From positions 5,890,001-5,954,000 of the forward strand of contig NZ_SHLD01000001.1 of NCBI RefSeq assembly GCF_004217615.1: a DNA stretch of 64,000 bases, in the 5' to 3' direction. Every line of letters begins with the position of its first letter. Within the stretch, counting starts at the first letter, position 1. Below are positions 12,495 through 51,245 of this stretch, in pieces. The notes below the pieces were generated by a model, which was given only the letters and a program-made list of their open reading frames with translations, was not told where the DNA came from and ran no database searches. Position numbers and translations under genes: made by a program. This stretch comes from Micromonospora kangleipakensis. Its GTDB lineage: Bacteria; Actinomycetota; Actinomycetes; Mycobacteriales; Micromonosporaceae.

Positions 12495-13298
12495 GTGAGT
12501 CCGATGACCCAGTCCCTCGTCGTGGCCGCAGAGCAGCGGCAGGCTGACCGCGACCAGGCGGCGGCGGTCGGCGAGGCCGAGGGGCGGGCGACCCTGGCCC
12601 TGCTCCGGCAGCTTCGGGACGACGACTGGCAACGCCGTACCGACGCCACCGAATGGGACGTCCGCACGACGGTCTCCCACCTCGTCGCCCAGGCCGAGGA
12701 CGCGCTCCGACTGCGCACCATGCTGCGCCGGGAACTCGTGGGACGCCTCCACCGCCGCGGCAAGATCCCCGTCGACGCCCACACGGCCGTCGGGGTCGAC
12801 GAGCACCGGTCGGACCGGGGGCCGGAGCTGGTCGAGCGGTTCGCGGTGTTGTGGCCGCAGGCGGTACGGGCCCGTCGGCGCAGGCCCGCGCTCCTGCGCC
12901 GGGCCAGGATGAGCCTGGGGATGCCGGGGGTGCCGCGCGTCCGCGTCGCCTACCTGCTCGACGTCATCCTCAACCGGGACCTGTGGATGCACCGGGCGGA
13001 CCTGGCCCGGGCCACCGGCAAACTCTTCGTCATCGCCGAGCACGATCGGCACATCGTCGCGCAGGTCATGCGGGATCTCGCGCTCCAGTGGTCGGCGGCA
13101 CCGGTCGCGCTGGAACTCACCGGCCCGGCCGGGGGCACGTGGCTGATCGGCTCGGGCGAGCTCGTGGCCGTCGTCCGCGCCGACGCGGTCGCCTACCTGC
13201 GCGCCCTGGCAGGCCGCGACGACAACGTCGACCTGGAACTCGTCTCCGGCGACGCAGCCGTCCTGACCGCGCTCCGCCAGGCCCGCATCCCCTTCTGA
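12495..13298 (+). CDS. Mycothiol-dependent maleylpyruvate isomerase-family protein
   Basis: DinB/MDMPI-fold protein of 267 residues. The N-terminal four-helix part has the family pattern TDATEWDVRTTVSHLVAQAEDAL, where the His after Ser is the usual metal ligand. A second conserved patch DVILNRDLWMHRADLARATG supplies the other His ligands. The C-terminal part resembles the sterol-carrier-like domain of these enzymes. GTG at 12495 is preferred over ATG at 12504 because GGAAGG lies four bases upstream of the former and thirteen upstream of the latter. Members handle mycothiol conjugates; the substrate is unknown here. Confidence 0.75.
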   Translation: MSPMTQSLVVAAEQRQADRDQAAAVGEAEGRATLALLRQLRDDDWQRRTDATEWDVRTTVSHLVAQAEDALRLRTMLRRELVGRLHRRGKIPVDAHTAVGVDEHRSDRGPELVERFAVLWPQAVRARRRRPALLRRARMSLGMPGVPRVRVAYLLDVILNRDLWMHRADLARATGKLFVIAEHDRHIVAQVMRDLALQWSAAPVALELTGPAGGTWLIGSGELVAVVRADAVAYLRALAGRDDNVDLELVSGDAAVLTALRQARIPF

Positions 13299-46696: not shown

Positions 46697-46779
46697 ATGC
46701 GGGGGTTTCTCGGATAAGTCCGCGTCGCGAGGATCCTTCTCATACGGTGATGATCAGAGGCTGCAAACCGATTTGTAGC
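46697..46779 (+). promoter_or_regulatory. Promoter module of the first Lys-Asp beta-helix gene
   Basis: Conserved in sequence and spacing with 49041-49122. Shared elements: ATGCGGGG...TCGGATA, then exactly 26 bases, TACGGT (46743-46748, likely -10 box), 11 bases, then the palindrome GCTGCAAA (46760-46767)/TTTGTAGC (46772-46779) around CCGA. The palindrome overlaps the expected transcription start and has the central CG of LacI-family operators. No good -35 box is seen. Confidence 0.6.
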
Positions 46780-46780
46780 T

Positions 46781-46807
46781 GGTCGCCCCGCCTTAAGCGG
46801 TACGACC
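46781..46807 (+). ncRNA. Leader hairpin, first Lys-Asp beta-helix gene
   Basis: GGTCG/CGACC (46781-46785 with 46803-46807) and CCGC/GCGG (46788-46791 with 46797-46800) with a CTTAA loop. The second gene has a hairpin at the same place with a different but also paired stem, which suggests the structure is kept in the RNA. Confidence 0.45.
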
Positions 46808-46838
46808 CGTCTGATACACGAAAGGGCGGAAGGCTCTG

Positions 46839-48740
46839 ATGTCCAACGACGTAACGACTTCCGACGGCGGGGCTCCGATGCCCCCGCCGACGAACAGGCG
46901 GCGGGCGCTCTGGGTCGCCACCGGCGTGGCCGGGCTGACCGGCGTCGTCGGGCTGGCGGCGCTGGGCGGCCTCGCCGCTCGTGACAACAAGTCCGACAAG
47001 ACGGACCGCGTGTCGGACAGGCAGGCCGCCACGGCCCAGCAGAAGGTCAGCGACGACCGCAGGGACCTGGACGACGAGGGCAAGGACCGGGACAAGGACA
47101 AGGACAAGGACGAGCGCGATGAGGTTCGGGAGGTGGACTGTGACGACGATGATCTGATCGAGGCCCTCGAGCTGGCCAACCGGGACGAGGGCGGCACGTT
47201 GAAGCTGGCCCGCGACTGCACCTACGAGCTGGACGAGTTCGACAAGAAGTCCGGGGCGGGCCTGCCCACGATCAAGGAAGAGATCAAGATCGAGGGTAAT
47301 GGCTCGACGATCAAGCGGGACTCCAGGGACGGCTTCCGGATCTTCCGGGTCGCCGACGGTGGTGACCTGACCCTGAAGGACGTCGCCGTCAAGAACGGCG
47401 CCGCCGCCGAGCGCGACCGCAAGGACCACAAGGACCACAAGGACGGCTGGGACGGCAAGGACCACGAGGACGGCAAGGACCCCAAGGACCACAAGGACAG
47501 CAAGGACCCCAAGGGCAGCAAGGAGCACGGCAAGGAGCACGACAAGCACGACAAGCACGACAAGCACGACAAGGATGGCAAGCACGACAAGGACGGCAGG
47601 GACCGCGAGGAGCACGAGGGCGACGGCGGTGGTCTGCTGGTCGAGCGAGGTGGCAAGGCCCACCTGGTGAACACCAAGTTCACCCTCAACAGCGCCGAGG
47701 ACAACGGCGGCGCGATCGCCAACTTCGGCCGGGTCGAGATCGAGAGCAGCACGCTCGACAACAACCACGCCGGCGACGACGGCGGCGCCATCTTCAACGC
47801 CGGTGTCCTCGAGGTCGAGGGGTCCCGCGACGGTAAGGGCGGCGAGTCCCGCATCACCAACAACACCGCCGGCGAGAACGGCGGCGGCATCGCCAACGGC
47901 CACGGCGAGAAGAAGAAGCACGACAAGGGAGACCGCGTCAACGGCAGCCGCCACGACGGCGACCACGACGACGACCGCGACGACCGCAAGGCCGGCACCG
48001 TGGAGATCGAAAAGACCCTCATCGAGGGCAACACCGCCGACAAGAACGGCGGCGGCCTGTTCAGCAACGACGGCTTCGTCGACATCAGCTGGACCATCAT
48101 CAAGAACAACAACGCCGGCAAGAACGGCGGCGGCATCGCCGCCATCGACACCGTCCTGACGGTCAAGAACAGCACCATCGAGAAGAACAAGGCCCACAAG
48201 GACGGCGGCGGCATCTACAACGTCAACAGCGAAGAGAAGGAACACGACGCCGTCCTCTACAACGGCAACGGCAACGGCAAGGACAAGGACAAGGACGAGG
48301 AAAAGCGCGGCTCGGCCACCGTCACCGACAGCGAGATCCTCGAGAACAGCGCGGGCCGCTTCGGCGGCGGCATCTTCAACGGCGAACCCGTCGAAGAGGA
48401 CCACAACGGCGACAACATGACCGCCCCGAACGCCTCGTCCAACCACAAGGACAACGACAACGACGACGAGGACTTCGAGGCCCGCCTGGCCCTGCGCGAC
48501 ACCAAGATCAAGGAGAACTTCGCCGGCAAGAACGGCGGCGGCATCTACAACAACGAAGGCAAGGTCACCCTGACCGACACCAAGGTCAAGGAGAACAAGG
48601 CCGACAACGGCGACAGGCGCAACAAGATCGCCGGCGGCATCTTCAACAACGACGGCAAGGTCAAACTCGACGACGACTCCACCATCACCGACAACGACCC
48701 CACCAACTGCGCCAAGACCGTCGAAGACTGCTTCAACTGA
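46839..48740 (+). CDS. Exported beta-helix protein with Lys-Asp-rich insertions, copy 1
   Basis: 633 residues, not recognised as a named family member. Domains in order: a signal sequence with a RRR n-region (residues 20-47); a charged Lys-Asp stretch (80-95); a cap with Cys at 101 and 127 ([16 protein letters not shown] ... ARDCTYEL), which resembles the start of other secreted beta-helix proteins; then about ten turns marked by GG(A/G)(I/L)xN motifs, as in right-handed beta-helices with Chlamydia-PMP-like repeats. A low-complexity xKD linker (about 192-258) is inserted after the second turn, and further Asp/Lys/His-rich loops interrupt later turns. The C-terminus has a Cys pair (624, 631). 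There is no sortase motif or C-terminal anchor. Surface or matrix role inferred; function unknown. Confidence 0.85.
47412..47610 (+). repeat. Nine-base xKD coding repeat, copy 1 linker
   Basis: Imperfect tandem units of AAGGACnnC (Lys-Asp-x), shifting to GACAAGCAC (Asp-Lys-His) units near the end. It is 45 bases shorter than the same linker in copy 2, and the two differ in unit order. Confidence 0.8.
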
Positions 48741-48762
48741 ACGACTGCACCACCACATAACG

Positions 48763-48804
48763 CCGGAGGTCCCTCTCCGCCGCACGGCGGAGAGGGACCT
48801 CCGG
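48763..48804 (+). terminator. Terminator after the first Lys-Asp beta-helix gene
   Basis: 48763-48782 and 48785-48804 are a perfect 20-base inverted repeat (CCGGAGGTCCCTCTCCGCCG) with almost no loop, 22 bases after the stop codon. Confidence 0.75.
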
Positions 48805-48870
48805 CCATCTACCGAGTGGTACGGGCGGGCCGTCCCCGACCATCACCGTTGACCCTCCCCGGCGGCCGCC

Positions 48871-48974
48871 GCGAGCTTCCCGCCACCAACCACGTCCTCC
48901 GCGCCCGTGCGAGCTTTCCGCCACCAGCCAGGTCCTGGCGGCATCCGCGAGCTTTCCGCCACTAGCCACGTTCT
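48871..48974. repeat. Three 28-base direct repeats at 38-base intervals
   Basis: Units at 48871-48898, 48909-48936 and 48947-48974 share GCGAGCTTTCCGCCACNAGC in consensus, with three or so differences each; spacers are ten bases. They lie between the two beta-helix genes, only upstream of copy 2. On the minus strand the unit reads GTGGCGGAAAGCTCGC, a string I recall from Micromonospora intergenic DNA. They may be protein-binding sites or a dispersed repeat. Confidence 0.75.
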
Positions 48975-49040
48975 GAGCACCGGTCATACCAAGCCCGGCC
49001 CGGGCGTCCGCACTCCTGCCGTCCGCGCCGGGCATACCTA

Positions 49041-49122
49041 ATGCGGGGTTTTTTCGGATACGCACGCATAGTGAGGAAGATTCCCATACGGTGTTCTTCA
49101 GCAGCTACAACCGATTTGTAGC
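49041..49122 (+). promoter_or_regulatory. Promoter module of the second Lys-Asp beta-helix gene
   Basis: Same layout as 46697-46779: ATGCGGGG...TCGGATA (ends 49060), 26 bases, TACGGT (49087-49092), 11 bases, palindrome GCTACAA (49104-49110)/TTGTAGC (49116-49122), here perfect. The DNA before it has no similarity to copy 1, so the module is conserved by itself. Confidence 0.6.
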
Positions 49123-49124
49123 GA

Positions 49125-49152
49125 AGGTCGCCTCGCAAGGGCGAAGCGACCT
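49125..49152 (+). ncRNA. Leader hairpin, second Lys-Asp beta-helix gene
   Basis: AGGTCGC (49125-49131) pairs with GCGACCT (49146-49152), and TCGC (49133-49136) with GCGA (49141-49144), around an AAGG loop and one C-A mismatch. Compared with copy 1 the stem is longer and differs in sequence, but pairing is preserved. Confidence 0.45.
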
Positions 49153-49184
49153 GGTCTGGTACGAGGAGAGGGCAGAGAGCTCAG

Positions 49185-51185
49185 ATGTCCAACTACCTTC
49201 GCGATAACGATGACGTCACCCGCGAGACGAAGTCCCCGTTCCGCCGCCGCGGACTCTGGCTGGTTACCGGCGTTGCGGGCCTCACGGGAGCAATCAGCCT
49301 CGCGGGCGTCGCCTACGCCACCACCGGCGTCACCGGCGCCCATCGGCTGACCGACGTGAAGTGGTCGACCGCCCAACTGGTCAGCGACGACGGCAAGGAC
49401 CGGGACAAGGACAAGGACCGGGACGACAAGGACCGGGACGACAAGGGCAAGGACCACGAGGGCAAGGACCGGGACAAGGACAAGGACCGGGACAAGGACA
49501 AGGACAAGGACGAACGCGATGAGGTTCGGGAGGTGGACTGTGACGACGATGATCTGATCGAGGCCCTCGAACTGGCCAACCGGGACGAGGGCGGCACGTT
49601 GAAGCTGGCCCGCGACTGCACCTACGAGCTGGACGAGTTCGACAAGAAGTCCGGGGCGGGCCTGCCCACGATCAAGGAAGAGATCAAGATCGAGGGTAAT
49701 GGCTCGACGATCAAGCGGGACTCCAGGGACGGCTTCCGGATCTTCCGGGTCGCCGAAGGTGGTGACCTGACGCTGAAGGACGTCGCCGTCAAGAACGGCG
49801 CCGCCGCCGAGCGCGACCGCAAGGACGGCAGGGACCACGAGGACGGCAAGGACCACGAGGACGGCAAGGACCACGAGGACAGCAAGGACAGCAAGGACGG
49901 CTGGGACAGCAAGGACAGCAAGGACCCGAAGGACAGCAAGGACCACAAGGACAGCAAGGAGCACGGCAAGCACGACAAGGACGGCAAGGACGGCAAGGAG
50001 CACGGCAAGCACGACAAGGATGGCAAGCACGACAAGGACGGCAGGGACCGCGAGGAGCACGAGGGCGACGGCGGTGGTCTGCTGGTCGAGCGAGGTGGCA
50101 AGGCCCACCTGGTGAACACCAAGTTCACCCTCAACAGCGCCGAGGACAACGGCGGCGCGATCGCCAACTTCGGCCGGGTCGAGATCGAGAGCAGCACGCT
50201 CGACAACAACCACGCCGGCGACGACGGCGGCGCCATCTTCAACGCCGGTGTCCTCGAGGTCGAGGGGTCCCGCGACGGTAAGGGCGGCGAGTCCCGCATC
50301 ACCAACAACACCGCCGGCGAGAACGGCGGCGGCATCGCCAACGGCCACGGCGAGAAGAAGAAGCACGACAAGGGAGACCGCGTCAACGGCAGCCGCCACG
50401 ACGGCGACCACGACGACGACCGCGACGACCGCAAGGCCGGCACCGTGGAGATCGAAAAGACCCTCATCGAGGGCAACACCGCCGACAAGAACGGCGGCGG
50501 CCTGTTCAGCAACGACGGCTTCGTCGACATCAGCTGGACCATCATCAAGAACAACAACGCCGGCAAGAACGGCGGCGGCATCGCCGCCATCGACACCGTC
50601 CTGACGGTCAAGAACAGCACCATCGAGAAGAACAAGGCCCACAAGGACGGCGGCGGCATCTACAACGTCAACAGCGAAGAGAAGGAACACGACGCCGTCC
50701 TCTACAACGGCAACGGCAACGGCAAGGACAAGGACAAGGACGAGGAAAAGCGCGGCTCGGCCACCGTCACCGACAGCGAGATCCTCGAGAACAGCGCGGG
50801 CCGCTTCGGCGGCGGCATCTTCAACGGCGAACCCGTCGAAGAGGACCACAACGGCGACAACATGACCGCCCCGAACGCCTCGTCCAACCACAAGGACAAC
50901 GACAACGACGACGAGGACTTCGAGGCCCGCCTGGCCCTGCGCGACACCAAGATCAAGGAGAACTTCGCCGGCAAGAACGGCGGCGGCATCTACAACAACG
51001 AAGGCAAGGTCACCCTGACCGACACCAAGGTCAAGGAGAACAAGGCCGACAACGGCGACAGGCGCAACAAGATCGCCGGCGGCATCTTCAACAACGACGG
51101 CAAGGTCAAACTCGACGACGACTCCACCATCACCGACAACGACCCCACCAACTGCGCCAAGACCGTCGAAGACTGCTTCAACTGA
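49185..51185 (+). CDS. Exported beta-helix protein with Lys-Asp-rich insertions, copy 2
   Basis: 666 residues, paralogue of the preceding gene. The signal region differs ([17 protein letters not shown], ending AYA), and the N-terminal Lys-Asp segment is longer (about residues 67-110, [10 protein letters not shown] units). The Cys-capped start (C119, C145) and the first turns are almost identical to copy 1 (four differences in 342 bases). The xKD linker (about 210-290) is 45 bases longer. From 50006 to the stop, 1180 bases look identical to copy 1 by eye. The flanks diverge immediately after TGA. Twin-arginine export is possible for both. The ribosome binding site is GAGGAGAGGG, some distance upstream. 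Confidence 0.85.
49812..50055 (+). repeat. Nine-base xKD coding repeat, copy 2 linker
   Basis: Lys-Asp-x units (AAGGACnnC) including EDGKDH triplicates and DSKDSKD runs; longer than and differently ordered from the copy 1 linker. Confidence 0.8.
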
Positions 51186-51209: not shown

Positions 51210-51245
51210 GTCGGCCCCCTGCCACCTCGGTGGCAGGGGGCCGAC
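51210..51245. terminator. Bidirectional terminator between copy 2 and the amylase-pullulanase gene
   Basis: 51210-51226 and 51229-51245 are a perfect 17-base inverted repeat (GTCGGCCCCCTGCCACC) with a two-base loop, ten bases from the stop of the convergent gene. Confidence 0.8.

Follow-up and report, generated by a model that had tools for sequence, protein, structure and literature searches.

A paired, putatively exported beta-helix protein family in Micromonospora with a shared, predicted structured leader RNA

Chlamydial Pmp proteins carry repeated GG(A/G)(I/L) turns, a beta-helix with variable unstructured loops and the PF02415 repeat, which PMC10715098 records in many non-chlamydial species. 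A second group of described systems, the riboswitches and protein-binding leaders, has structured 5′ leaders that show compensatory changes, end at the start codon and serve one gene family. Features of both meet in Micromonospora kangleipakensis (assembly GCF_004217615.1, contig NZ_SHLD01000001.1, positions 5,890,001 to 5,954,000, forward strand; this whole stretch of 64,000 nucleotides is called the window), at two adjacent + strand open reading frames (ORFs), gene A (46839–48740, 633 codons) and gene B (49185–51185, 666 codons). It is proposed, as the probable explanation, that A and B, each transcribed separately, encode one exported rod, a right-handed beta-helix with Cys caps, in which the helix is homogenised by gene conversion and the front ends are of two distinct types, under a dedicated leader RNA.

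AlphaFold predicts a confident right-handed beta-helix that spans residues ~95–633, with disordered inserts; in the predicted structure the helix and its Cys cap reach the last residues. Both proteins begin with a predicted basic and hydrophobic export-type signal. Cys101 and Cys127 (A numbering) open the helix, Cys624 and Cys631 close the C-terminus, and there are ten GG turns, nine GG(A/G)(I/L) and one GGIF, most of which read GGG(I/L) and not GGA. A preliminary description of this DNA, made from its letters alone, had listed two adjacent genes of exactly these lengths, a signal sequence, a Cys-capped start, a C-terminal Cys pair, about ten turn motifs and a beta-helix core, all of which were borne out.

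The same description had related the turns to those of Chlamydia PMP adhesins. This kinship holds at the level of the repeat, as PF02415 (E 9e-10 and 1.1e-10; 38.2 and 41.1 bits against a gathering cut-off of 20.6) and TIGR01376 (E 3.9e-9 and 7.5e-9) match the two proteins. It does not extend further: Pmp proteins have paired FxxN motifs, whereas A and B have a single FxxN each and mostly read (I/V/L)xxN at the equivalent place; A and B are actinobacterial and have Cys caps at both helix ends; and scans of Pfam and NCBIfam found no C-terminal autotransporter beta-barrel family in either. A search that scored 7994 candidates returned 748 homologues at E<=1e-3. The AlgE4 and AlgE6 A-modules, pertactin and Vag8 share the helix fold, but at only 9–18% identity among the fold matches listed, and no solved structure matched A or B by sequence at E<=1. 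AlgE mannuronan epimerases and lyases rank best among these fold matches, and on that ground the rod might be an epimerase, lyase or hydrolase that acts on polysaccharides. This is very unlikely, and the conservation pattern is mainly structural. A rod in which no conserved catalytic set is apparent and whose loops can be exchanged is most simply structural or adhesive.

After the first cap Cys, A and B are 99.8% identical in the alignable part of the proteins, and before it only ~50%. From the first Cys to the stop, minus the insert, identity was 98.7% over 533 aligned codons; the cores differed at 2 of 214 fourfold-degenerate sites, and their last 300 nucleotides were identical. Forty loci from other genomes, the top of the protein-B match list from 151 genomes of the genus, were compared with the window. 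ORF searches of these 41 loci recovered 30 A-B pairs, three A-only and eight B-only loci, and the first gene was type A and the second type B in every pair. When 20 loci from divergent genomes were joined to the 40, asnB and the aminopeptidase P gene adjoined the family genes in 60/60 loci and a pullulanase gene in 55/60, and two leaders stood in each of the 20. Searches with the front-end peptides across the 151 genomes matched B in 148 and A in 150, counts that are upper bounds because the two peptides cross-match. Many genomes have, after the type-B signal, a short tail with a W-S/N-T-A motif, which suggests that this tail does something besides export. Perfect stems of at least 10 bp lie within 120 nucleotides 3′ of the stop in 50 of the 70 family genes with enough sequence; because such hairpins follow A and B as well, the two look like separate transcripts.

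Across the 30 pairs, front ends sorted by type and cores tended to sort by genome, with 17 pairs as sisters in the core tree and 13 not. The 80 nucleotides 3′ of the two stops were dissimilar, with identities of 0.21–0.50 in 29 pairs; at L067 the comparison reads 1.00 over the few bases before a contig end. Because silent sites match, yet front ends and post-stop sequences differ, conversion is limited to the homologous core. An assembly artefact or a very recent duplication was ruled out by the single-contig genome and by the same order and front ends in 29 other pairs. Purifying selection does not account for the core identity either, since no difference was seen at as many as 305 fourfold sites.

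Pairs of tuf genes are the textbook example of concerted evolution by gene conversion. A and B resemble such paralogues in that, after an old duplication, copies within a genome are more alike than orthologues, though not in all clades; they differ in that homogenisation affects only the mature rod, and among the pairs examined each type keeps its own leader and front end. Conversion might instead serve surface variation, for escape from phage or grazers, a reading that would fit the variable loops and the high ratio of nonsynonymous to synonymous substitution in the core (0.25–1.08 in 22 close comparisons and ~1.0 for the window against L034, values inflated by errors in loop alignment). But conversion makes copies alike and builds no repertoire, and protein A finds only these two genes in its own genome, so variation is quite unlikely to be the purpose.

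The blocks upstream of both genes were conserved across loci, and each gene is preceded by a leader of ~95 nucleotides with three hairpins. B leaders have a near-invariant GCTACAA-CCGAT-TTGTAGC hairpin (P1), then a hairpin of variable sequence (P2) and then, just before the ATG, a short hairpin (P3) with a Shine-Dalgarno-like stretch in its loop; A leaders follow the same plan in different sequence. In 51 distinct B leaders, 91.6% of alignment cells were paired, against 35–41% in slid controls. An alignment of 116 leaders (109 distinct) was 93.1% paired, with compensatory changes at 13/23 pairs; compensated cells numbered 150, compared with 50 after shuffling. A chosen set from 49 sources that included divergent copies (83 matches, 80 distinct) was 91.0% paired, with compensation at 17/23 pairs; divergent copies swap whole P1 pairs, as in GCGACAA..TTGTCGC, and the CCGAT loop was kept in 51/83. 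These joint alignments were fitted to the model and are hence biased towards it; their slid controls gave 37–44%. Folding z-scores were -2.8 for leader A and -1.8 for leader B.

TANNNT is an actinobacterial -10 pattern, and it occurs at the same place in 116/116 leaders while its NNN differs. A conserved T-rich block (TTTTTTCGGATA-like; 46705–46716 and 49049–49060) lies ~27–38 bases 5′ of this box, before both genes in place of a recognisable -35, and is possibly an activator site. P1, which hardly varies among B leaders and lies just 3′ of the -10-like box, reads as a perfect palindrome around five spacer bases, so the block could be a DNA operator for a dimeric repressor (GCTACAA-N5-TTGTAGC). 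Of the readings weighed here this has the slimmest chance: 45/46 variant P1 cells are G-U wobbles, a kind of pair confined to RNA, whole pairs are swapped in divergent copies, and all 12 P2 pairs show compensatory changes. An upstream ORF or attenuator peptide was ruled out, as leader lengths fall into all three remainders modulo 3 (0/1/2: A 12/21/17, B 10/12/34) and one tested frame contains a stop in 19/50 A and 12/56 B leaders.

Type-A leaders can also pair across the start codon, through a stretch before P1 and seven bases that end in the AU of the codon; all seven positions pair in 29/50 leaders, six in 12/50 and fewer in nine. The A start codon is predicted to be less open than when the sequence upstream is shuffled (0.42 vs 0.78). 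Because this closure is predicted in A and not in B, the two genes may answer the same cue differently.

The leader is also associated with the protein family in its distribution. Model R1, built from B leaders only, was significant in the source genome only at the A and B leaders (next matches E 5.7 and 7.0). At E<=0.01 it matched 32 of 150 genomes of Micromonosporaceae, and 16 of the 32 belong to other genera. Of these 16 matches 15 were fetched, and seven precede a family gene (L108–L113 and L118), namely the six best (E 1.6e-7 or better) and one weak match (G170). The other eight, all weak (L114–L117, L119–L122), and L123 within the genus had no family gene downstream and were set aside; the sixteenth, G230, covers model positions 37–66 only and lay outside the fetched set. 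Model R2, built from 116 leaders with L108–L113 among them, reached E<=0.01 in 73 of 250 genomes, of which 63 belong to the same genus and the other 10 have 11 matches; none of the eight false R1 genomes was among the 73. All 11 outside matches directly precede a like gene with an RRR/RW signal, a Cys cap and GG turns, ten of which have an NRP(T/D)NC..C end, and five of the 11 (G170, G196 twice, G238 and G263) are independent of the making of the model.

A third, weaker leader match in five genomes of the genus (L129–L132, L137) always stands before a family gene, three times on the same contig 0.6–5.3 megabases away and twice on other contigs; in one case the contig stops 95 residues into the gene. 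In this third copy a U-A pair of P1 has become G-C and the CCGAT loop is kept. An exact 21-base hairpin pattern had five matches in a collection of 84,980 species, three in Plantactinospora and two in Micromonospora, all before family genes. R1 reached E<=1e-3 in 25 of 200 genomes from the order; 23 of these belong to the same genus, and the other two are weak matches outside Micromonosporaceae (E 4.8e-4 and 8.7e-4).

The A/B leader is thus a conserved structured leader beside a start codon, as in riboswitches and protein-binding leaders; it differs from these in having no Rfam 15 family, with no match over either window leader at E<=10, and in being confidently found only in Micromonosporaceae. 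Within leader loci, Rfam gave seven weak matches at E<=5, in five loci and always outside the leader positions; the weak matches (microRNA, C/D-box, CRISPR-repeat, scr4677) were far below the cut-offs and were discarded. The leader might be a constitutive set of 5′ hairpins that stabilises a highly expressed mRNA and senses no signal, which would suit its restriction to these genes in this genome and the position of P1 where the 5′ end is expected. We consider this unlikely, since a generic stabiliser would need neither so constant a P1 nor so strict a link to the start codon, nor would it have to be conserved from genus to genus. That the leader is instead a new class of regulatory RNA for exported beta-helix rods, a start-site gate that senses a cue, with two export versions kept identical by conversion of the rod only, is a tentative proposal to which we give slightly less than an even chance. 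Under that proposal, and with the same reserve, candidate cues are the state of the envelope, a metabolite or an RNA-binding protein.

Under the explanation favoured here, A and B would be one rod of a Micromonosporaceae family made from separate transcription units. The comparisons show an old pair that keeps its order and locus and has two distinct front ends, each conserved and each made up of a signal and a mature N-terminal tail, and a helix that gene conversion has repeatedly copied from one gene to the other within part of Micromonospora. They also show leaders that are conserved by structure and tied to this gene family across genera. The rod would form a structural or adhesive layer without enzymatic activity on the outer face of the hyphal or spore wall, and the two front ends may direct or retain one and the same rod in different manners or at different times. 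Translation would be gated by the leader, in which P3 is predicted to hold the Shine-Dalgarno-like stretch next to the start codon and the 5′ end could, in A, close over that codon; the switch could be some protein, metabolite or physical cue.

Several points weigh against this explanation. All results come from sequence comparison and prediction. ORF searches found only a single gene in 11/41 loci, and the 20 divergent loci gave both genes with a recognisable cap in 15 cases, with cores 87–100% identical in five and 47–70% identical in ten; conversion is not universal and is frequent in part of Micromonospora and absent or old elsewhere. P3 is nearly invariant, so its support is weaker than that of P2; leader B has a modest folding z-score, and its start codon is predicted to be as open as with shuffled upstream sequence (0.85 vs 0.82). 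In the minimum-energy fold of the window's A leader, AUCAGAG pairs with a nearer UCUGAU instead; two alternative partners would leave two exclusive forms. Finally, the weaker R1 matches were mostly false, with one true among ten fetched (E 2e-5 to 0.009).

The preliminary description had also noted Lys-Asp insertions after the second turn with smaller charged loops at later turns, both of which are present, and had suggested that they bind divalent cations, polyanions or glucans. D, E, K, R and H make up 41–44% of residues in A and B, the inserts hold 11 and 10 His, and a pullulanase gene is the usual neighbour; two homologues (P0005, P0006) have a charged tract at the insert position, and most copies have a charged linker ahead of the cap. 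In 62/71 genes the loop that follows the second turn could be delimited, and only the two window inserts (charged fractions 0.72 and 0.76) exceed 0.41, the other 60 being commonly rich in Pro/Ala, Gly/Pro, Gly/Gln or Ala/Thr. Insert length in these 60 ranged from 35 to 254 residues as delimited, with some flanking helix counted in, and it differs between A and B although their flanks are identical; no RTX GGxGxD repeat was found in either sequence. Because composition and length vary across genes, the insert would be a spacer rather than a ligand site, and, on the aligned sequences, the Lys-Asp form is one state of a hypervariable disordered loop. Charge is not conserved in the insert, which leaves conserved binding by charge unsupported, and there is little prospect that the charged loops are the working part. 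Long Lys/Asp-rich linkers, together with the same leader, were seen in another genus (L108–L112, L135 and L136).

The preliminary description knew of no family with this combination of features. A literature search with limited reach into subscription papers did not turn up any account of this Micromonospora family, of its pairing or of its leader, and the main text of PMC11109978, PMC8632094 and PMC2864571 mentions neither Micromonospora nor Salinispora. The fold and the repeat are already known; the leader and the A-B pairing appear to be undescribed. An apparently uncatalogued leader tied to one protein family offers a handle on the role of a widespread, uncharacterised and probable surface protein in antibiotic-producing actinobacteria, and whatever it senses should reveal when the cell needs the rod. 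The pair also offers a natural experiment that parts export route from protein identity, because gene conversion holds the rod constant while the front ends stay different.

Table 1. Positions in the window of genes A and B, their leaders and associated features.
Feature	Position	Strand	Basis
-10-like box TACGGT (TANNNT) of gene A	46743..46748	+	TANNNT at same place in 116/116 leaders
Structured leader RNA of gene A, through ATG	46744..46841	+	Found by B-only model R1, whole-genome E 7.1e-14
AUCAGAG of leader A, can pair with CUCUGAU (46834–46840) across start codon (predicted closed form)	46753..46759	+	
Leader A hairpin P1 (GCTGCAA..TTGTAGC)	46760..46779	+	
Leader A hairpin P2, covarying	46781..46807	+	
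Leader A hairpin P3, Shine-Dalgarno-like GGAAG in loop	46824..46836	+	
Gene A, exported beta-helix protein, 633 residues, type-A front end (MSNDVTT..GGLAARD)	46839..48740	+	ORF, profile and fold evidence
Gene A homogenised core, first cap Cys to stop	47139..48740	+	
Lys-Asp-rich disordered insert of A, residues 191–262	47409..47624	+	
21-bp perfect hairpin 3′ of gene A, terminator-like, between A and B	48762..48805	+	
-10-like box TACGGT of gene B	49087..49092	+	TANNNT at same place in 116/116 leaders
Structured leader RNA of gene B, through ATG	49088..49187	+	
Leader B hairpin P1 GCTACAACCGATTTGTAGC	49104..49122	+	
Leader B hairpin P2, covarying	49124..49153	+	
Leader B hairpin P3 beside start codon	49170..49182	+	
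Gene B, exported beta-helix protein, 666 residues, type-B front end	49185..51185	+	ORF, profile evidence
Gene B homogenised core, first cap Cys to stop	49539..51185	+	
Lys-Asp-rich insert of B, residues 209–295, disordered by analogy with A	49809..50069	+	
17-bp perfect hairpin between gene B and convergent pullulanase gene	51210..51245	+	

At one B-only locus (L042:7646–8198), a type-A leader remains, with a short leftover of a type-A front end behind it, and the rest of that gene is gone; judged by sequence, some single-gene loci may be decayed pairs. In one genome (L073, from 12431 onward), a third, divergent family gene lies beside an A-B pair and has its own leader match at 13023–13121 (E 3.7e-5).

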